A stretch of 34,557 nucleotides of DNA from Balneolia bacterium (lineage in GTDB: Bacteria; Bacteroidota; Rhodothermia; Balneolales; Cyclonatronaceae). The translations under genes and the position numbers were made by a program. Below, in pieces: positions 95-29,922 of this stretch. Position 1 is the stretch's first letter. Every line of letters starts with the position of its first letter. The stretch covers positions 1 through 34,557 of the forward strand of contig JAIUMA010000034.1 in the NCBI GenBank assembly GCA_022565795.1, given 5' to 3'. Under the pieces are notes generated by a model that was given only the letters and a program-made list of their open reading frames with translations, did not search any database and had not been told where the DNA came from.

Positions 95-979
95 TTATGC
101 ATTCAATGCTTCAGCACCTGAAACAATTTCTGACAATTCTGTAGTAATCGCAGCTTGTCTGGCCTTGTTGTATTTCAGGTTAAGATGACCGATAATTTCC
201 TTGGCGTTTTCTGTCGCATTATCCATTGCGGCCATACGTGCACCCTGCTCGGAAGCATTGGACTCAAGAAGAGCGCGCCACAGCTGCATGTTAATATGAA
301 GCGGAATAATGTTGTTCAAAATCTGCCCCGGATTCGGCTCAAAAATATAATCAATTGAATCACCGGAAGTCAACTCTTCTTCATCACTTTCAACTGAAAC
401 TGGAAGCAGCTGGCTGAACAGTCTGTTCTGCGCAATTACGCTCTTGAATTCGTTGAAAGCAAGAAAAACGGCATCATACTTTCCATTTTCAAACTCTTCG
501 GCCACGCGGGTCGTAATTTCAATAGAAGCATCAAAACTAAGGTTATCGAAGAAGCCGTCATTACGGTTCACGATGTTATACCCGCGCTTGCTGAAGAACT
601 CACCTGCCTTGCGACCAATTGTAATCATTGATAACTGACCGCTCTCACGGTAGCTCGGGAAACGGGCAGCCAGAGTATCGGTGATGAAGCGAAACAGATT
701 ACTGTTGAAACCACCGCACAACCCTCTGTCGGAACCAACCGCAATTAGGAGTATGTTTTGCGGGTTCTCGACGCTGGTCATGAAAACATTCTCAGAATCG
801 CTGCTGCTGCTCAGTTTTTCAAGGACCGCCTGCAAACCCGCCACGTACGGACGGGTTGCAATAACGTTATCCTGCGCTTTGCGCAAACGGGCAGCCGCAA
901 CCATCTTCATGGCTTTGGTAATCTGCTGTGTACTTTTAACCGATGATATACGGTCGCGTATTTCGCGCAGATTGGCCAT
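95..979 (-). CDS. atpG: F1Fo ATP synthase gamma subunit
   Basis: Central rotor shaft of the F1 motor, which couples rotation of the membrane c-ring to ATP synthesis in the alpha/beta head. The 294-residue length is normal. The N-terminal helix MANLREIRDRISSVKSTQQ with the following TKAMKMVAAARLR, and the C-terminal helix (about residues 250-290, NATENAKEIIG then NKARQAAITTELSEI), are the two strands of the gamma coiled coil that enter the alpha/beta barrel. It is the last gene of the ATP synthase cluster, one base after the atpA stop, so almost certainly cotranscribed and translationally linked with atpA. The next same-strand feature is a tRNA, not atpD/atpC as in many bacteria. Confidence 0.97.
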   Translation of the reverse strand: MANLREIRDRISSVKSTQQITKAMKMVAAARLRKAQDNVIATRPYVAGLQAVLEKLSSSSDSENVFMTSVENPQNILLIAVGSDRGLCGGFNSNLFRFITDTLAARFPSYRESGQLSMITIGRKAGEFFSKRGYNIVNRNDGFFDNLSFDASIEITTRVAEEFENGKYDAVFLAFNEFKSVIAQNRLFSQLLPVSVESDEEELTSGDSIDYIFEPNPGQILNNIIPLHINMQLWRALLESNASEQGARMAAMDNATENAKEIIGHLNLKYNKARQAAITTELSEIVSGAEALNA

Positions 980-980
980 A

Positions 981-2597
981 TCAGCTTCTGATAGAGTTTA
1001 GAATTTCGTTTTTGGCTGTATTGGCTACAGCGATAATCTTATCCTTAGCTTCGTCACTCAGTTTACCTGTAGCGCTAAGTTCGTCGAGCACAGCCTGATG
1101 CTTGAGGTGAAGGGCTTCGAGGAAGCTCTTCTCAAACTCCTGAACCTTTCCAACCGGAAGCTCGCTCAGTACGCCTTCGTTGTTGGCCAGAAGCACAGCA
1201 ACCTGCTCTTCTACCGCCAGTGGCGAGTACTGATTCTGCTTCAGAAGCTCAACGGAACGCTCACCCTTGGATAGCTGGCGCTGTGTGGTAGCATCGAGAT
1301 CAGAACCGAATTTAGCGAATGCTTCAAGCTCACGATACTGGGCAAGATCAAGCTTCAGGGTACCTGAAAGCTTTTTCATCGCCTTAACCTGAGCAGAACC
1401 ACCTACACGAGATACCGAGATACCTACATCAATAGCCGGACGCACACCAGAGTTGAACAGGTTTGTCTGCAGGAAGATCTGACCGTCAGTAATAGAAATT
1501 ACGTTGGTCGGAATGTATGCAGAAACGTCACCCGCCTGTGTTTCAATAATCGGAAGAGCTGTTAGCGAGCCACCACCTTTAATGAGCGGACGAAGGCCTT
1601 CAGGCACGTCGTTCATTTGCTCGGCCACAGCCTGGTTACGGTTAATTTTCGCAGCACGCTCAAGAAGACGGCTGTGGAGGTAGAATACGTCACCAGGGTA
1701 CGCTTCACGTCCCGGAGGACGTCTTAGAAGAAGAGAAACCTCACGATAAGCTACAGCCTGCTTGGAAAGATCATCATAGATAATGAGCGCATGGCGACCC
1801 GTATCACGGAAATATTCACCGATAGCAGCACCGGCGTAAGCAGCGATGTACTGAAGCGGAGCAGGAGCGGTTGCAGGAGCCGAAACAATAGTCGTGTATT
1901 TCTTGGCACCTTCGCGCTCGAGAATCTGATTTACCTGAGAAATAGTAGAGTTTTTCTGACCGATAGCTACGTAAATACAGAAAACCCCTTCGCCTTTGTC
2001 ATGCGACGCCTTCTGGTTCAGAATGGTATCGATAGCGATTGCTGTTTTACCGGTCTGACGGTCACCAATGATAAGCTCACGCTGGCCACGACCAATAGGA
2101 ATCATGGAGTCGATTGCCTTAATACCGGTCTGAAGCGGCTCACTTACCGGTTCACGATACACAACGCCCGGCGCCTTGCGCTCGAGTGGCATTTGAATCG
2201 TTTTACCGGCAATAGGACCTTCACCGTCTACAGGTTTACCGAGCGGATCCAGTACGCGGCCAAGGACGCCTTCACCCACATTAATGGACGCAATGTTTTT
2301 GGTTCTGCGAACCGTGTGGCCTTCCTGAATAGAACTGGCTGAACCGAAGAGTACAATACCTACATTGTCTTCTTCAAGGTTAAGTACCATTCCCTGTACA
2401 GGATTTCCGTCTTTGTCTCTTGAGTCGGGAAGCTCTACAAGCTCACCGGCCTGAATTTTGCTGAGGCCGTACACGCGGGCGATACCATCACCAACTTCAA
2501 GTACGGTGCCTTCATCATAAATATCGGACTCAGACTGAAATCCAGCCAGCTGTTTTCTCAGGATAGCTGATACTTCGTCGGGTTTAACGTGACTCAT
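981..2597 (-). CDS. atpA: F1Fo ATP synthase alpha subunit
   Basis: Non-catalytic nucleotide-binding subunit of the F1 head. The 538 residues are slightly longer than the usual 500-515. Walker A GDRQTGKT is at residues 178-185, the family signature [20 protein letters not shown] follows in the middle third, and the N-terminal beta-barrel carries GIARVYGL near residue 38. The start codon gives the expected [17 protein letters not shown]-terminus; no Shine-Dalgarno is visible in front of it, the 42-base gap to atpH being AT-rich. Separated from atpG by one base. The partner beta subunit is not in the window. Confidence 0.98.
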
Positions 2598-2639
2598 AAT
2601 AATATTTAATTAAACTCTGTCTTTAATCGGTATCGGTTT

Positions 2640-3185
2640 TCAGATTGCGGCTTTTAAAAACAAATGCTCAAGTTGCTCAAGACTGTGTTTTACAGAGCCA
2701 TCAATAACAGTATCATCAATTTTAACGACAAGGCCGCCCACAAGGTCGGTTTTTTGCCTGGTAACAAGCTCGATGGTTTTTCCTGTTTTGGCAGCAAGTG
2801 CCTTACGGATTGCTTCGAGTTGTTTATCGTCTGGCTTTTCGGCGTAAATCACCTCAGCTACGACGATTCCTTTGTGTTTACGGTATGCCTCAATAAAAGA
2901 CTGCGTGATACCAGGAAGAAGATCAAATCGTGACTTTTCCGCAATCAGGCCGAACAGGGAGTTCATTTGTTTGGAAACGTCTTTACCAAACAGTTCCTTA
3001 AGCACTTCTGTTTTCTTAGCCGGTTTTACAACCGGATTTCTGAGAAAAAGAAGCAGCTCTCTGGACTGCCTGATGGTTTCATCCACATGCTGAACGTCTT
3101 TCAATACCGAATCGAGCGAATCGGTTTCAAGTGCATACCCGAGCAGGGCTGCGGAATAACGTCTGGCGGCTTTAGTTGGGATCAT
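2640..3185 (-). CDS. atpH: F1Fo ATP synthase delta subunit
   Basis: Peripheral-stalk protein that ties the top of the F1 head to the b subunits (OSCP family). The 181-residue length is typical. An N-terminal helical bundle begins MIPTKAARRYSAALLGYA, and the conserved C-terminal region includes KTDLVGGLVVKIDDTVIDGS (about residues 145-164), the family signature. Six bases separate it from atpF upstream and 42 from atpA downstream, in the standard b-delta-alpha-gamma order. Confidence 0.95.
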   Translation of the reverse strand: MIPTKAARRYSAALLGYALETDSLDSVLKDVQHVDETIRQSRELLLFLRNPVVKPAKKTEVLKELFGKDVSKQMNSLFGLIAEKSRFDLLPGITQSFIEAYRKHKGIVVAEVIYAEKPDDKQLEAIRKALAAKTGKTIELVTRQKTDLVGGLVVKIDDTVIDGSVKHSLEQLEHLFLKAAI

Positions 3186-3191
3186 CAGTGA

Positions 3192-3701
3192 TTAGTTCTT
3201 AGAAAGCCCGTCGATGAAATCATCAACAAGTTTCTTGTTCTTCTTTTCATCGAGTTCGGCGTTCAGAATCTTGCCGGCAGCTTCGAGAGCCAGCTCAGCA
3301 ACGTGGCTGCGCAGTTCAAGCATAGCTTTTTGCTTTTCCTGCTCAATCGATGCAAGGGTCTGCTCTTTTACCGCTTCAGCTTCTGTACGTGCTTTATCGA
3401 TGAGATCAACGCGAATCTTTTCGGCTTCCTCTTTGGCTTCCTTGCGGAGGCGCTGAGCTTCTACTTCGGCCTGACGTAGTGCTTCGTCGTTTTTCCTGGA
3501 AATCTCTTCTGCGCGGCTCATCGCCTTCTCAGCAGAATCAAGTGATTCCTGAATGCTTTTTTCACGCTGCTCGAGCGCCTGAAGCACAGGGCCCCACGCG
3601 AACTTTTTAAGCAGCACAAAGAAAAGCACGAACGTAACACCTACCCACAGAACAATGCCTGTTTCGAAGTTCAGCAGTGCGTTAGCTAAAACCGGATTCA
3701 T
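3192..3701 (-). CDS. atpF: F1Fo ATP synthase b subunit
   Basis: Peripheral-stalk subunit that holds the F1 head against the membrane stator. One N-terminal membrane segment (about residues 10-30, IVLWVGVTFVLFFVLLKKF) is followed by a long charged helix to residue 169, rich in Glu, Lys, Arg and Ala with coiled-coil spacing (for example EISRKNDEALRQAEVEAQR). There is a single b gene and no b' paralogue, as in non-photosynthetic bacteria. It lies between atpE (77-base gap) and atpH (6-base gap). Confidence 0.95.
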   Translation of the reverse strand: MNPVLANALLNFETGIVLWVGVTFVLFFVLLKKFAWGPVLQALEQREKSIQESLDSAEKAMSRAEEISRKNDEALRQAEVEAQRLRKEAKEEAEKIRVDLIDKARTEAEAVKEQTLASIEQEKQKAMLELRSHVAELALEAAGKILNAELDEKKNKKLVDDFIDGLSKN

Positions 3702-10304: not shown

Positions 10305-12836
10305 TTGGAAGATTTTTTAAATATCAGCCTGAACCTGCCGGTTAACGATCCGGTCCTCATTTTCGGGATTGTGATGATCATCATCCTGATCGCCCCTATT
10401 ATAGTTCAGAAGCTGAAGATTCCTGGGCTTGTAGGTACGATTCTGGCAGGGACCATCGTAGGCCCTAGCGTACTTGGCCTGCTCGAGCGCGACGACACTA
10501 TCATTTTGCTGGGGACGGTGGGCTTGCTCTACCTGATGTTCATGGCCGGCCTGAGTATCGACCTCAACAAATTTGAGAAAAATCGGAATAAAAGCCTTGC
10601 CTTTGGGCTTATTTCCTTCTTTATTCCTCAGCTGGCAGCTATACCTGTTGGTATGTACATACTCAACTTTTCTTTAGCTTCCTCCATTCTTTTAGGCTCA
10701 ATAGTGGGTTCTCATACGCTTCTCGCGTATCCAATTGCCAGCCGGATCGGTATTCAGAAAAACGCGGCCGTTACCATGGCAATGGGCGGCACAATTGTTA
10801 CCGATATGCTGTCGCTAATCTTTCTGGCAATCGTGGCCAACACGATCGGTGCCTCATCCGGGGTCGGTTTTTGGATTACCTTTGTTATTTTGGTCGTGAT
10901 TTATGGCGTTGCAGTACTATTCGGACTTCCGATTCTTGGTCGATGGTTTTTCCGAAATGTTAGAAACCAAACCAACACCGAGTACGTGTTCATGATCGCA
11001 CTTCTCTTCATTTCGGCTTACCTGGCCGAGCTGGTCGGGCTTGCTGCGATTATCGGAGCGTTTCTTGCAGGTTTAACCCTCAATCGCCTGGTACCGGAAT
11101 CGGGTACGCTTATGAGTAGGGTTCAGTTTGTAGGGAACGCGCTCTTCATTCCCTTTTTCCTGATATCCGTTGGTATGCTGGTAGATGTAAGAGTAATGAT
11201 CGAAAGCTGGTCGGTATGGCTTCAGACCGCTGCCTTCACCGGTCTGGTCGTGTTTGGAAAAGGCATTGCTGCCAAACTCACTCAGCTTCTCTTCCGGATG
11301 TCAGCAGCTGAGGGATGGACCGTGGTTGGCTTAACCATCCCGCAGGCGGCGGCTACGCTTGCCGTTACCCTTGTGGGTTTTGAGCTGGGACTTTTTACGC
11401 AGACTTCAGTAAACGCCGTTGTTCTTATGATTCTGATAACCTGCATGATTGGACCGACCTTTGTAGAGAAGTTTGGGCGTCAGGTTGCCCTTCAGGATGC
11501 GAAAAAACCATACGACCCGAAAGATGCTCCTGAGCGTATTCTGGTACCTCTGGCGAATCCGCAGACCGCCGAAACCCTCATGGATATCGCCATGATTGTG
11601 AAAAAGAAAAACAGCGAAGAACCTATTTTCCCACTCACCGTCGCCCGCGATACCGGCAGCGCAGATACTGACGCACGCGTGGCAGAAAGCGAGAAGATGC
11701 TGAGTCATGCCGTGGTTCATGCGGCCGCAGCTGAGGTTCCTGTACTGCCCATTACCCGTATCGATATGAATATTTCAAACGGTATTCTGAGGGCAATTAA
11801 GGAGCTTAGGGCTTCACATGTTATTATAGGTTGGAACGGGCAGATTTCGGCACGTCAGCGTATTTTTGGTACGGTGCTCGACCAGATGCTTGAGCAGGCG
11901 CAACAGCTGGTGATGGTTTGCAAGGTGGATCATCCGATAAACGTAACTGAACGCATTTTCCTTATGGTTCCGCCCTATCTCGACCGCGAGCCGGGTTTCT
12001 CCGACGCCATGTCAACCATACAGAATATGGTGAGCGAAATTGGTGCTGACCTTATCGTTGTTACATCACGAAATAACCACAACACCATTCGCACGGTTAT
12101 TGAGACCGAAGAGCCGCAAATCGAGGGCGAGTACATCACCCTCGACAACTGGAGCGATTTATTACGGGACGATCGTATCAATTTCCAGGATGAAGAAGAT
12201 ATGGTTCTCCTATTAAGTACCCGTAAAGGAACCGTTTCATGGGATGATAATCTGGAGCGTTTGCCGCGAATTATTGCCCAGAATTATCCTAATGTCAACT
12301 TTATTACGCTATATCCATCCGAGATCACAACGGAAGAAAACGTGGTTAACCGCATCAGTTTTGAGAGCGTAGGCCGTATTCCGAGCATCAGCACGGAGCA
12401 TGTGAATTTCGAGCTCAACAACATGGATGCAGGCACCGCACTTCGGGAACTTATGGGTAAGAAGTTTCATAACAATCCTGTTGCGCTTAGCGAAGTGGTG
12501 GAGCGAATTCTGGCTCAGGATATCGATAACCTTCCGGGAGAGCTTCCGAACGTGGTGCTCACCAAAACCAGAACGACGCTTTGCAGCAAGCCAACGCTCT
12601 TCATGGGAATCAGCACTGAGGGCATTGACTATCCAAATGTTGAGGAAAAAGTAAACCTGCTTTTTGTACTGCTAACGCCGAGAACGACAACCACGCAGCA
12701 AAGTATTTCTGTTCTGGCAAATTTGGCGCGCGTTTTGGCGCACAAGAAAACCTACCGCAAGATTAAAGAAGCAAAATCAGTTGCTGAAATCAGCGAAATT
12801 ATTGATAATGTACGGTTGAGTATCCGCAACCGCTAA
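10305..12836 (+). CDS. CPA2-family cation/proton antiporter with C-terminal UspA-like domains
   Basis: Membrane antiporter, probably exchanging Na+ or K+ for H+. 843 residues. About residues 15-385 form 11-13 membrane helices with CPA2-type motifs (KIPGLVGTILAGTIVGP at about 36-52, GGTIVTDMLSLIF at about 160-172 where the ion-site Asp is expected, AAIIGAFLAGLTLNRL near 250). The C-terminal half (about 405-690) is soluble and reads as two universal-stress-protein-like domains, for example ERILVPLANPQTAETLMDIA. The start codon is TTG: it preserves the expected lead-in NDPVLIFGIVMII, whereas the nearest in-frame ATG (at 10374) would cut into the first helix. The next gene begins 16 bases after its stop. 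Confidence 0.88.
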   Translation: MEDFLNISLNLPVNDPVLIFGIVMIIILIAPIIVQKLKIPGLVGTILAGTIVGPSVLGLLERDDTIILLGTVGLLYLMFMAGLSIDLNKFEKNRNKSLAFGLISFFIPQLAAIPVGMYILNFSLASSILLGSIVGSHTLLAYPIASRIGIQKNAAVTMAMGGTIVTDMLSLIFLAIVANTIGASSGVGFWITFVILVVIYGVAVLFGLPILGRWFFRNVRNQTNTEYVFMIALLFISAYLAELVGLAAIIGAFLAGLTLNRLVPESGTLMSRVQFVGNALFIPFFLISVGMLVDVRVMIESWSVWLQTAAFTGLVVFGKGIAAKLTQLLFRMSAAEGWTVVGLTIPQAAATLAVTLVGFELGLFTQTSVNAVVLMILITCMIGPTFVEKFGRQVALQDAKKPYDPKDAPERILVPLANPQTAETLMDIAMIVKKKNSEEPIFPLTVARDTGSADTDARVAESEKMLSHAVVHAAAAEVPVLPITRIDMNISNGILRAIKELRASHVIIGWNGQISARQRIFGTVLDQMLEQAQQLVMVCKVDHPINVTERIFLMVPPYLDREPGFSDAMSTIQNMVSEIGADLIVVTSRNNHNTIRTVIETEEPQIEGEYITLDNWSDLLRDDRINFQDEEDMVLLLSTRKGTVSWDDNLERLPRIIAQNYPNVNFITLYPSEITTEENVVNRISFESVGRIPSISTEHVNFELNNMDAGTALRELMGKKFHNNPVALSEVVERILAQDIDNLPGELPNVVLTKTRTTLCSKPTLFMGISTEGIDYPNVEEKVNLLFVLLTPRTTTTQQSISVLANLARVLAHKKTYRKIKEAKSVAEISEIIDNVRLSIRNR

Positions 12837-19331: not shown

Positions 19332-21641
19332 CTAGTAAAATTCGTCGAAGGCTGAGCGTACTCTCGGGTCGCGCTCGTTATCGTAGCGCTGTTCGAGGAG
19401 GTCATTCATGCGGTTTGCCGGGAGTCGATCCAGGTGAGACAGTGCCCGGTAGCGGATACGCGGATCGGCATCGCTAACGAGTGCAGGAAGCAGTTCAGCC
19501 AGCTCTGCGGTGTGGTTGTGACGGATGAGCATTCTCATAGCCGTATCGCGCATGGCAAACGGAAAATCAGTGCTTTCAAGTACGTCAAGGCTGGTGAACA
19601 ATGCAACATCCTGATCTTCGGCCCGGTAGAGCTCTTCGATGGCCGCGGCGCGGATTCCTGCCGGACGACTTCCAAGCAGCAGCGAGCGGGATAATTCGTT
19701 GAACTGATCCTCAGACGCAATCCTTCTGAACACTCCAATCGCCGCAACGGCAGCAGGCTGGTAGGTGGACTGCTGCGCTACCCTTCCCACGGCCGAAATC
19801 ACGTCTTCATTACCCTCATAGTGCCACATAGCGTCAACAGCGGCGTGGAGCTCTTCACCCTGAGCCGTCCGGGCCATTTCTATGAAAATCTGCTGGGTGC
19901 CGGACGCGCCTTCAACGATATCGCTGAGGGAGCGAACTATGGCCGTGCGAACCGACGAGCGTTCTTCGCGGCGGAGGAAATCCTGCATGGCAAGCTGTAT
20001 ATCGGGATCATCGCGGAAGCGCGGCATCATTTGGGCAGCGCGGCGTCTGTTGCTGTCGCTGCTGTCGTTACGCAATTGGTGCAGCCACATTTCCAGATTT
20101 TTGATCTCAAAAAACTCGATGCCCTCAACCTGACTGTAATCGACGGTGATGTTCTGAAGGCGCTGTTCTGTTTCAACGAAAAATTCGCCACCGGTGCGGT
20201 GAACGGTTAGCTCTTCCTGCCTCTCTCCGCTTCTGGAGATAAGTCTTAGCGGAATGTAAAGGCTGTCGCGCTCCAGCTCCTCACGCGGCTCAACAATAAC
20301 CAGAACGCCTGAGCGCTCGGAATCGGGCTCAAATGCTATATTAACAAGCTTGCGCTCTCTTTCCTCTCCGTTCTCATCATCGCCGGTGATGCTTACAGGG
20401 TCGAGCGGGCGTCCGGTGTTTTCATACCAGTGAAGCATATATTGCTCCCAGCTAAAGACGGAGCCGTTCATGCGAAACAGCTGCTGCATTTCTGATGTGA
20501 TGGCATTTCGGTGAAGCTCGGGCAGCTCAGTAAACGCATCCCGCCATTTCAGCCAGCTGTTCTGGCTGAGGTGATCAAAATCGGTGAAATATTCCGTAGC
20601 CGGGAAATCGTAAACAGTCAGATCCCCCTCAGGGCGCGACATGCCTGAAAGTGCAGCAGCCTGCATCAGAATTTGGGTTCCGGCATCGGCAACGGTCTCA
20701 CTGCGATGAAATGCACCGAACCACTGGGCCGCTGTAACCCGCTCCAGCTGTGCGCTGAGGCTGTATGCGTTCATCGAGAGCAGTCCAATAGTGGCGGCGT
20801 ACGTTTTAGGCTCCCAAACGTGATCCTGCAGTACAATCACCGAAAATGACTCATACGGAAATTCGAAGCGCAAATTACGCTGAAGGCGGCTGACAGCCGA
20901 TGTGGCCTCGCGCATCAGCTCGTTCCGGGTGCTGCTGCTAATGGTATTGGCCTCGGAATAAACGCGCACAGACTTGATGCCCATCATCGTTTCTGCATAA
21001 TCAAGCTGACCAACAAAAAATGCCAGATCCGTCGACGGGATGGTCTCGCCGGAGCTCCAAACTACTTTCTTGCGGTCTTCATCAATCTGCTGTTCGGAGT
21101 CGAAATAGCCGTTGGCCACAACCTCTTTCCGGCTCGGCACCGTAAGTCCGATACGGGTAGTCATCTCCACGCGGGGATGCTCAAATACCGGAATCCACTC
21201 GGCGCGTCGTCCCGGCATAAGGGAAGTAAACACCGTACCCGCAGCTGTTTTCAGGAACACCTGTGATGACGCCGTGCTGTAGCTTATTTCAAGGGTGAAC
21301 TCACGGCCGGAGTTGATCAGGTTTTCGGGAATATCAACCAAAAGAAAACCGTCTTCCGACTCATGCTCAGCGGTCTGACCGTTCACCTGTACGCTGTCTA
21401 CGGCCAGGCCGGATGCGTGCAGTCTCAGCTGACCCGCCTCATTGTTACGCGCCGCGACGGTGTAGGTAGCAATACCCTCAAGCGAGCGTTCGGTAGGAGA
21501 AAAGTGAAGATCGGCGTCAAGATGGCGAAAATCGTAGTCCAGAACCGGAAACGTCTCGTATTCCTGAGCAAATGAAGTTGACCAAAGACCAGCAAACAGC
21601 ACCGGAATGAGAAAAAACAGCGGTAGGAATCTTTTTATCAT
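19332..21641 (-). CDS. Secreted M1-peptidase-like protein with lost active site and C-terminal HEAT-like repeats
   Basis: 769 residues. A signal peptide (1-25, cut expected after SFA) leads into an M1-aminopeptidase-type N-terminal beta domain (YDFRHLDADLHFSPTERSLE, 36-55) and a peptidase-like domain. Where active M1 enzymes have HExxHQWFG, this protein reads RVTAAQWFG (301-309): QWFG is kept but both His and the Glu are gone. The third zinc ligand (Glu of the NEG motif) falls at ADAG (318-321), and the GAMEN exopeptidase loop is replaced by IGLLSMN (285-291). It is therefore a predicted pseudoenzyme. About residues 520-765 are alpha-helical repeats of HEAT type (RRRAAQMMPRFRDDPDIQLA, PAGIRAAAIEELYRAEDQDV, PRIRYRALSHLDRLP). 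It probably acts as an extracytoplasmic binding or scaffold protein. The hisN-like gene ends 9 bases upstream. Confidence 0.85.
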   Translation of the reverse strand: MIKRFLPLFFLIPVLFAGLWSTSFAQEYETFPVLDYDFRHLDADLHFSPTERSLEGIATYTVAARNNEAGQLRLHASGLAVDSVQVNGQTAEHESEDGFLLVDIPENLINSGREFTLEISYSTASSQVFLKTAAGTVFTSLMPGRRAEWIPVFEHPRVEMTTRIGLTVPSRKEVVANGYFDSEQQIDEDRKKVVWSSGETIPSTDLAFFVGQLDYAETMMGIKSVRVYSEANTISSSTRNELMREATSAVSRLQRNLRFEFPYESFSVIVLQDHVWEPKTYAATIGLLSMNAYSLSAQLERVTAAQWFGAFHRSETVADAGTQILMQAAALSGMSRPEGDLTVYDFPATEYFTDFDHLSQNSWLKWRDAFTELPELHRNAITSEMQQLFRMNGSVFSWEQYMLHWYENTGRPLDPVSITGDDENGEERERKLVNIAFEPDSERSGVLVIVEPREELERDSLYIPLRLISRSGERQEELTVHRTGGEFFVETEQRLQNITVDYSQVEGIEFFEIKNLEMWLHQLRNDSSDSNRRRAAQMMPRFRDDPDIQLAMQDFLRREERSSVRTAIVRSLSDIVEGASGTQQIFIEMARTAQGEELHAAVDAMWHYEGNEDVISAVGRVAQQSTYQPAAVAAIGVFRRIASEDQFNELSRSLLLGSRPAGIRAAAIEELYRAEDQDVALFTSLDVLESTDFPFAMRDTAMRMLIRHNHTAELAELLPALVSDADPRIRYRALSHLDRLPANRMNDLLEQRYDNERDPRVRSAFDEFY

Positions 21642-21650
21642 AGCTGGAAA

Positions 21651-22427
21651 TCAGGAGTGGGTTTCAAAAATGTGAAGGAGTTCTTGTTTCAGTTCCGGTG
21701 AGCATGAAAAACCGTTGCCACCATCAATGCGGGCGTTGCCCTTAAGGTCAGTAAACGAACCACCGGCCTGCTCTATTACCGGAAGAAGCGCGGCGGCGTC
21801 CCAAAGGTTTAAAACCGGGTCCATCATGATGTCGGCTCTGCCCGTGGCGACCATCAGGTGGCCGTATGCGTCGCCGTAGGTACGATGAGTCTTAACTTTT
21901 GTGAGCAGGTGCTCGAATGACTTTTTATGCCCGTAGGTATTGAAATACTGCACGTCTGATGTCATCATTGAAGCGTCAGCCAGACTGCTGCACGGACGAA
22001 TACGGGTTTCAGAATTGTTGAAGTAGGCTCCTACCCCGGTTGCCCCGGCCACGAGTTCATTCATATAGGGAGCATGTATGACGCCCACCGTGGGGGTATC
22101 GTCTATGGCAATACCAACCAAATTGGTGTAAAGCGGGATCCCGTGGATGAAACCAACCGTGCCATCGATGGGGTCAAGTATCCATTTTACGGATGCGTTT
22201 TCGTTGTGTGGCCCAAATTCCTCGCCAATTATGCCGTGTTCTGGAAACGTTTCCATGATGAAGGCGCGCATCTGCTTCTCGGCCTCACGGTCAGCGATGG
22301 TAACGGGTGAATCGTCTTGCTTTGAGATAACTTCGAAATCCTTCTGAAAATACCGAAGCGTAACCTCACCGGCCATTTTAGCCACTTTTACGGCTGCTTC
22401 GAATAATTGCTCAGTATTAACTGACAT
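21651..22427 (-). CDS. hisN: Inositol-monophosphatase-family phosphatase, probably histidinol-phosphatase
   Basis: Magnesium-dependent phosphatase. 258 residues. Metal-site motifs are complete: GEE at 68-70, DPIDGT at 85-90 and WDAAA from 209. The long-loop wording around them (VGFIHGIPLY after the DPIDGT, then RTYGDAYGHLMVATGRADIM and DPVLNLWDAAALLP) is closer to HisN histidinol-phosphate phosphatases than to SuhB or CysQ, which would place it in the penultimate dephosphorylation of histidine synthesis. No other his gene is nearby, so the substrate remains an inference. It is followed by the M1-like gene 9 bases later, probably in one transcript. Confidence 0.8.
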   Translation of the reverse strand: MSVNTEQLFEAAVKVAKMAGEVTLRYFQKDFEVISKQDDSPVTIADREAEKQMRAFIMETFPEHGIIGEEFGPHNENASVKWILDPIDGTVGFIHGIPLYTNLVGIAIDDTPTVGVIHAPYMNELVAGATGVGAYFNNSETRIRPCSSLADASMMTSDVQYFNTYGHKKSFEHLLTKVKTHRTYGDAYGHLMVATGRADIMMDPVLNLWDAAALLPVIEQAGGSFTDLKGNARIDGGNGFSCSPELKQELLHIFETHS

Positions 22428-27427: not shown

Positions 27428-28797
<1,370 letters not shown>

Positions 28798-28798
<1 letters not shown>

Positions 28799-29922
28799 TG
28801 CCATCACCCCGCTTCAATATAAGCTATCGGATAACGGCTTCCACCCCTGAGGAAGCCCGTTCGCTCTGCACCAAGGTTGCCTACGAACAAAGCGTGGAGC
28901 TGCCCGATGATGTGCTCACGCCTGAAATTCGCAGCGAGATGGTGGGCCAGGTCACCGCGCTCGATCAGCTTGATGACAGCACCTTCGAAGCCGCCATCTC
29001 CTACTCCCATGCCTCGCTTGATGAAAGCATTTCCCAGCTTCTGAACGTCATTCTCGGCAACGCCTCCTTGTTCAGGGGCGTGCGAATCACCGGGCTGGAG
29101 TGGGATAAGCTGCCAGGACATCTTTGTCCTGGACCCAAATTCGGCATTGATGGCGTTCGCGCTCACCATGGCATCACCACAAAACGCGCACTCAGCTGCT
29201 CGGCCCTGAAGCCGATTGGTCTGGATTCGGCTTCCCTGGCTGATTTCTGCTACCAGTTTGCGCTGGGCGGCATCGACATCATCAAGGATGATCACGGCAT
29301 GGCCAACCAATCGGCCGCCCCGTTTGATCAGCGCCTGAATGCCTGCGTGGATGCTACCAAACGAGCGGCCGACAAAACGGGTCACCGCGCCGGATACTAC
29401 CCGAATATCACCGCTGACGCAGCAGAGACCATGCGCCGCTACGAGGCAGCGTATGAAGCCGGAGCCGGCGGCGTGCTCCTTATCCCGCATCTGTGCGGAC
29501 TTGGTACGCTTGCTGAAATCGCTTCATCCGACATTCCGCTTCCGGTGATGGCACATCCAGCCTTTTCGGGTAGCTACGTGCTTTCACAAACCGAGGGCCT
29601 CACGCCGGATTTTCTTTACGGTCAGCTGTGGAAAGAGCTTGGCGCCGACTTCAGCATCTATCCCAACGCCGGCGGCCGCTTTTCGTTTTCTGTTGATGAA
29701 TGCCTTGCCATAAATGCATCCTGCCGCAAACCCGCGTCCCGTAATGCCAAGGGCTGCTTCCCAACCCCGGGCGGCGGCGTACAGCGTCAAACCCTGCCCG
29801 AGCTCCTGAAACGCTACGGAAACGACACCGTCTTCCTCATCGGCGGCAGCCTCTACCAGCATCCCAAAGGAATCGAATACGCCAGCCGGGAGCTTATGGA
29901 AATCTTGATTTCTGATTACTAA
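28798..29922 (+). CDS. RuBisCO-like protein (form IV, probably DeepYkr type)
   Basis: 374 residues from the ATG that overlaps the purA stop by one base (a GTG at 28795 is also possible). Fold marks of the RuBisCO large subunit are kept: LKPIGLD with K138 (active-site lysine of loop 1), GGIDIIKDDHG with K163 and D165 at the carbamate/Mg positions, AHPAF with H253, PTPGGGVQ at 323-330 and IGGSLYQHPKG at 348-358. The third metal position reads His166 where true RuBisCO has Glu, and the loop-6 lysine is not seen, so CO2 fixation is not expected. Known form IV proteins act as enolases or isomerases on 5-methylthioribulose 1-phosphate in sulfur salvage. A cupin gene 500 bases downstream fits such a role. 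Confidence 0.88.

Follow-up and report, generated by a model that had tools for sequence, protein, structure and literature searches.

A predicted M1 pseudopeptidase conserved in the Balneolales, with constraint apparently relocated from the former catalytic domain to its HEAT-like domain IV

The window analyzed here (34,557 nucleotides, the whole stretch of DNA under study, from contig JAIUMA010000034.1 of a Balneolia bacterium) encodes an M1 aminopeptidase homologue that keeps the four-domain fold of its family and has lost the catalytic site, and in which selective constraint, judged by comparison of orthologues with an active paralogue, has shifted away from the catalytic domain and towards the HEAT-like domain IV. 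We consider this inversion of constraint to be the strongest clue to function. On balance, we favor the view that the dead M1-HEAT protein is a periplasmic or secreted binding scaffold that works through domain IV.

The gene (Table 1) is read in one open frame on the minus strand, in agreement with the intact 769 codons described in an earlier note on this DNA, and the signal peptide which that note proposed is borne out both by a hydrophobic segment here and by a comparable one in 31/31 aligned orthologues, none of which carries a lipobox (0/31). The protein is thus probably exported, with the periplasm or the exterior as its presumed location. Pfam recognizes Peptidase_M1_N at residues 40-201 (E 5e-8) and HEAT_2 at residues 516-604 (E 4e-14; found in 30/31 orthologues), and gives no match to the catalytic domain PF01433 anywhere in the protein.

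Table 1. Features of the pseudo-M1 aminopeptidase gene and its upstream neighbor (positions in the window; residues of the encoded protein)
Feature	Position	Strand	Basis or remark
Pseudo-M1 aminopeptidase gene	19332-21641	minus	769 aa, one open frame
Signal peptide, residues 1-25 (SFA|Q), no lipobox	21567-21641	minus	cleavage position judged by eye
M1 N-terminal beta domain, residues 36-230	20952-21536	minus	Pfam PF17900; AlphaFold2 model
Degenerate, shortened M1 catalytic domain, residues 236-412	20406-20936	minus	model, alignments
Conserved loop D273-x-x-W276-E277, just before former GAMEN position	20811-20825	minus	orthologue alignment
Former HExxH, now R301-V-T-A-A305, then retained QWFG 306-309	20715-20741	minus	orthologue alignment
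Beta-sandwich domain III, residues 430-513	20103-20354	minus	AlphaFold2 secondary structure; profile alignment
HEAT-like domain IV, residues 514-769	19335-20102	minus	Pfam HEAT_2, constraint comparison
HisN-like inositol-monophosphatase-family gene, directly upstream	21651-22427	minus	linkage conserved in order

Membership of the M1 family is evident from the N-terminal domain (PF17900) and from the four-domain fold (HHalign, Foldseek). A profile alignment with active M1-HEAT proteins (HHalign probability 100, E 3e-48, 716 columns) excludes a chance resemblance, and the AlphaFold2 model, built with 31 orthologues, reaches a mean pLDDT of 88.7 and a pTM of 0.80; as modeled, the M1 architecture is complete, with all four of its domains. 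When the model was searched against the PDB with Foldseek, the TAF2 subunit of TFIID ranked first (7edx_B, E 3.1e-30), by a small margin over PepN, followed by IRAP, ERAP1, and other M1 enzymes. For a control model of the active M1-HEAT paralogue encoded in the same genome, the 50 best structure matches were enzymes only, with no TAF2 among them—a contrast that is suggestive only, because the lead of TAF2 over PepN is so small. Sequence profiles searched against the PDB over the N-terminal half matched LTA4H (4e-21) and TAF2 (7e-20). The HEAT repeats, which the earlier note took for an addition to the M1 architecture, are the ordinary M1 domain IV: a recent acquisition is ruled out by the HEAT_2 domain of the active paralogue (locus L082 on G000:C1; PF17900, PF01433, and HEAT_2) together with the 716-column alignment, and M1-HEAT proteins are widespread across the phylum. 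The window's genome also has a tandem pair of active-type M1 peptidase genes (L003 and L004; G000:C39:26112-28496).

In place of HExxH the protein reads R301-V-T-A-A305, directly N-terminal to a retained QWFG (306-309), exactly as the earlier note had read it within its interval 20679-20789 (i.e., residues 285-321, which span the former zinc motif). HExxH is absent from the entire protein and from all 43 distinct Balneolales orthologues, so that the loss is not offset by an intact motif elsewhere, and the replacements are themselves conserved: the first zinc His has become Arg in 31/43 orthologues, the catalytic Glu has become Gly in 26/43, and the second His has become Ala, Gly, or Ser in 37/43. 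Around this dismantled core, Q306, W307, and G309 are each retained in 42/43 orthologues, and the loop upstream keeps D273 in 37, W276 in 40, and E277 in 39 of the 43. The other two motifs had previously been placed out of register. Rather than falling on IGLLSMN, the GAMEN counterpart is set by MAFFT (as GMEN) against P278-K-T-Y281, and HHalign leaves the stretch largely unmatched; rather than falling on ADAG, the NEG counterpart is Q323-I-L325 (MAFFT) or a gap (HHalign), and under neither alignment is there a zinc Glu here, although the column is poorly aligned and holds a Glu in 9/43 orthologues. By alignment, the segment that carries the catalytic Tyr (HTYxKG) is missing altogether from the Balneolales dead proteins; in the protein studied here, the catalytic domain is ~35 residues shorter than that of the active paralogue. 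The earlier view that every catalytic residue is lost therefore stands: HExxH...E, the GAMEN-type exopeptidase loop, and the catalytic Tyr that mark an active M1 enzyme are all gone. From these replacements, aminopeptidase catalysis is predicted to be absent, and the protein is best described as a pseudopeptidase, i.e., a peptidase-family homologue without catalytic residues that has been selectively retained.

That retention is broad. Orthologues occur in 11/11 genomes of the family and 114/129 of the order, the exceptions being mostly small genomes of two genera, and the gene is single-copy in most of the order; a contig scan found one close relative only, a Balneolia MAG. Against a 75%-identical orthologue (genome G002), pN over the whole gene is 0.157 and pS 0.754. 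Synonymous sites have reached saturation in this comparison; over residues 262-330 dN/dS is ~0.05, close to that of the neighboring HisN gene (0.043). Both the order-wide retention and this purifying selection uphold the earlier judgment that the gene is not simply decaying, and neither fits an isolated copy on its way to loss. Two orthologues are split into two frames (L063, 6840-9079, and L071, 7661-10088, in genomes G009 and G048), whether by assembly error, frameshift, or decay, and would lend themselves to a pseudogene explanation; yet the frame is intact here and in nearly all other genomes, so decay is rejected for the family, and we attach next to no probability to it for this gene.

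The pattern of constraint across domains distinguishes the dead protein from its active paralogue. In the eight genomes that encode both, mean pairwise identity of the dead protein is 34% in domain I, 29% in the former catalytic domain, 25% in the beta domain, and 40% in the HEAT domain, versus 60, 64, 35, and 30%, respectively, in the active paralogue. In the dead protein, the HEAT domain is more conserved than the catalytic domain in every genome pair (28/28), and in the active paralogue in none (0/28); the pairs have ancestry in common and do not count as independent observations, though their direction is unanimous. Domain IV is the best-conserved part of the dead protein, with the motifs Q522-L-R524, D547-x-Q549-L550 followed by D554, and G578-x-x-G581-T582 (QLR, PDLQLA..D, and GASGT), of which D547, D554, and G581 are invariant in the 43 Balneolales orthologues. 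These comparisons show a shift of constraint, as read from sequence identity, out of the catalytic domain and into domain IV, and the unanimity of the inversion makes it likely that the HEAT repeats form a partner surface, as had been proposed before.

Related dead M1-HEAT proteins turn up in further Rhodothermia families, and the protein described here probably belongs to a lineage of exported pseudo-M1 proteins spread over many families of that class. In a tree that includes active relatives from across the phylum, all dead proteins except one group together (SH-aLRT 91). Nested among them is a C-terminal fragment from genome G151 (L081) in which NEG and HSYRKG are intact, and on this placement the dead proteins descend from an active ancestor that lost the site; a separate N-terminal fragment of the same genome (L086), whose placement is unsure, keeps GMEN and HELAH. 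Constraining all the dead proteins to one clade that excludes L081 gave a higher likelihood and was not rejected (p 0.60), so a single loss is possible. When the first HEAT repeats of the Balneolales dead proteins were turned into a profile, its best scores (52 to 37 bits) went to L081 and to several of the class's dead proteins; the Balneolales active paralogue reached 5 bits, and the proteins of family f19 mostly scored low. A tree in which the Balneolales dead proteins group with the active paralogue of their own order was 34 lnL units worse (p 0.09), and a recent duplication of that paralogue is accordingly disfavored, though not rejected. Because branches in the tree are long, we regard this reconstructed history as likely rather than proven. 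The one dead protein that falls apart from the others, L134 of G151 (698-3382, minus strand; RSVAHQWFG, PEG), lost its zinc site separately, inside the active M1-HEAT clade. Among further dead M1-HEAT proteins (L098-L118, L120, L122, L132, and L139, mostly from family f19 of the class), most lack even the QW motif.

Directly upstream of the gene lies a HisN-like gene, and this linkage recurs in 30/34 order neighborhoods by automatic count and in at least one more on closer look; other frequent neighbors are a convergent NatA/NatB-like ABC exporter, GlgA, and GlgC. HisN is by family a cytoplasmic enzyme. Since it is cytoplasmic, the neighbors are household genes, and four relatives from outside the order showed no such linkage, we take the arrangement for order-specific synteny or for shared transcription and see no functional pair in it; the layout on which the earlier note remarked yields no direct functional link. 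PADLOC returned no match to a defense system. Two other genes of the window deserve mention in their own right. At 28795-29922 (plus strand), a gene that overlaps the adenylosuccinate synthetase gene at the latter's end encodes a RuBisCO-like protein of 375 aa, whose best solved relative is 3qfw (E 8e-63), with DK-MTP-1-P enolases next. The gene at 10305-12836 (plus strand) combines a Na+/H+ exchanger with universal-stress and PTS EIIA domains in one fusion protein.

How might such a scaffold have arisen and worked? Its zinc site was dismantled by replacement of the first His with Arg, of the Glu with Gly or another small residue, and of the second His with a small residue; the zinc Glu and catalytic Tyr are gone, as are ~35 residues of the catalytic domain, and the four-domain M1 fold is kept. 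The former enzyme body would then act as a rigid frame and a partner would dock on the first HEAT repeats, an arrangement comparable to that of the dead M1 protein TAF2 within TFIID. TAF2 is an aminopeptidase-like fold within TFIID (PMC4309443), and in the yeast complex a Taf8 helix has been cross-linked to Taf2 domain 4 (PMC6220335). We infer the binding function, the domain IV partner, and the periplasmic location from these combined observations; none of the conserved neighbors (HisN, the NatA/B-like exporter, GlgA, and GlgC) suggests a partner. The old cleft may still matter, because conservation extends to two elements close to where the active site used to be, the W-E loop and QW.G. A more tentative extension, which we would not bet on but think worth stating, is that the bacteria of the Rhodothermia have a TAF2 counterpart in the periplasm: an M1 protein that lost its activity long ago and holds an as yet undescribed envelope complex together, with domain IV as the docking site.

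The conservation around the old cleft is also what the chief alternative reading would build on, namely that the protein is a peptide or ligand receptor whose cleft, remodeled around the D-x-x-W-E loop and the Arg in place of the first His, binds without cutting, in the way proposed for yeast Tma108. The near-invariance of D273, W276, E277, and QW.G, the recurrence of that Arg (31/43), and the strong constraint on residues 262-330 among close relatives (dN/dS 0.05) all fit such a receptor. However, the GAMEN Glu that binds the substrate amine is gone, between more distant orthologues conservation is lower in the former catalytic domain than in domain IV, and the model case, Tma108, retains nearly all of its active-site residues (PMC11266112), so we think a receptor unlikely, if still worth keeping in view. 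The conserved replacements, which do not look like free drift, could be taken as signs of a different, non-peptidase activity in the remodeled site; as no conserved cluster of catalytic type is seen besides D273/E277 and Arg301, and no family match points to another activity, we would be surprised if this were the case.

Pseudoenzymes often regulate their active relatives (PMC11266112, PMC10211241), and both the dead protein and the active M1-HEAT aminopeptidase paralogue are encoded in the window's genome, which raises the prospect that the former is a regulatory or structural subunit of the latter in the same cell. The distributions argue against it: the dead protein is present in 114/129 order genomes and the active paralogue in 29/129, leaving at least 85 genomes in which the dead one does without the paralogue, and a subunit role is for this reason very improbable. 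The binding scaffold is the reading to which the domain-wise pattern of constraint points.

To our knowledge, most pseudopeptidases on record come from eukaryotes. In the open-access literature searched, we found no description of a bacterial, exported dead M1-HEAT family. In the bacterial case, active relatives survive in the phylum, one relative with part of its site intact sits among the dead proteins, and the shift of constraint can be measured. These features put the step from enzyme to likely scaffold within reach of direct tests and bring a conserved exported protein of the Balneolales to notice.

As a kind, inactive M1 proteins are already known (TAF2, Tma108). The active enzymes PepN, ERAP1/2, and IRAP, as well as L082, share the same four domains in the same order, but each has its own GAMEN, HExxH, zinc Glu, and catalytic Tyr, all of which are lost here. 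LTA4H is the best sequence match of the N-terminal domain (PDB profile 4e-21; NCBIfam TIGR02411 weak), yet the dead protein is without the catalytic site, and its NCBIfam score is 42 bits against a cut-off of 762. The yeast M1 pseudopeptidase candidate Tma108 has been proposed to bind nascent chains (PMC11266112); it keeps all active-site residues but one, whereas the bacterial family has none and is probably exported. Closest in structure is TAF2, which provides the best Foldseek match and a strong profile match and has the same four-domain M1-like fold. TAF2, however, is a eukaryotic, nuclear, DNA-contacting subunit of TFIID with TAF8 and TAF10 as partners, and the protein described here is bacterial with a signal peptide. 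As its resemblance to TAF2 only marginally exceeds that to active M1 enzymes, TAF2 and the bacterial family likely lost the site separately on the same fold.
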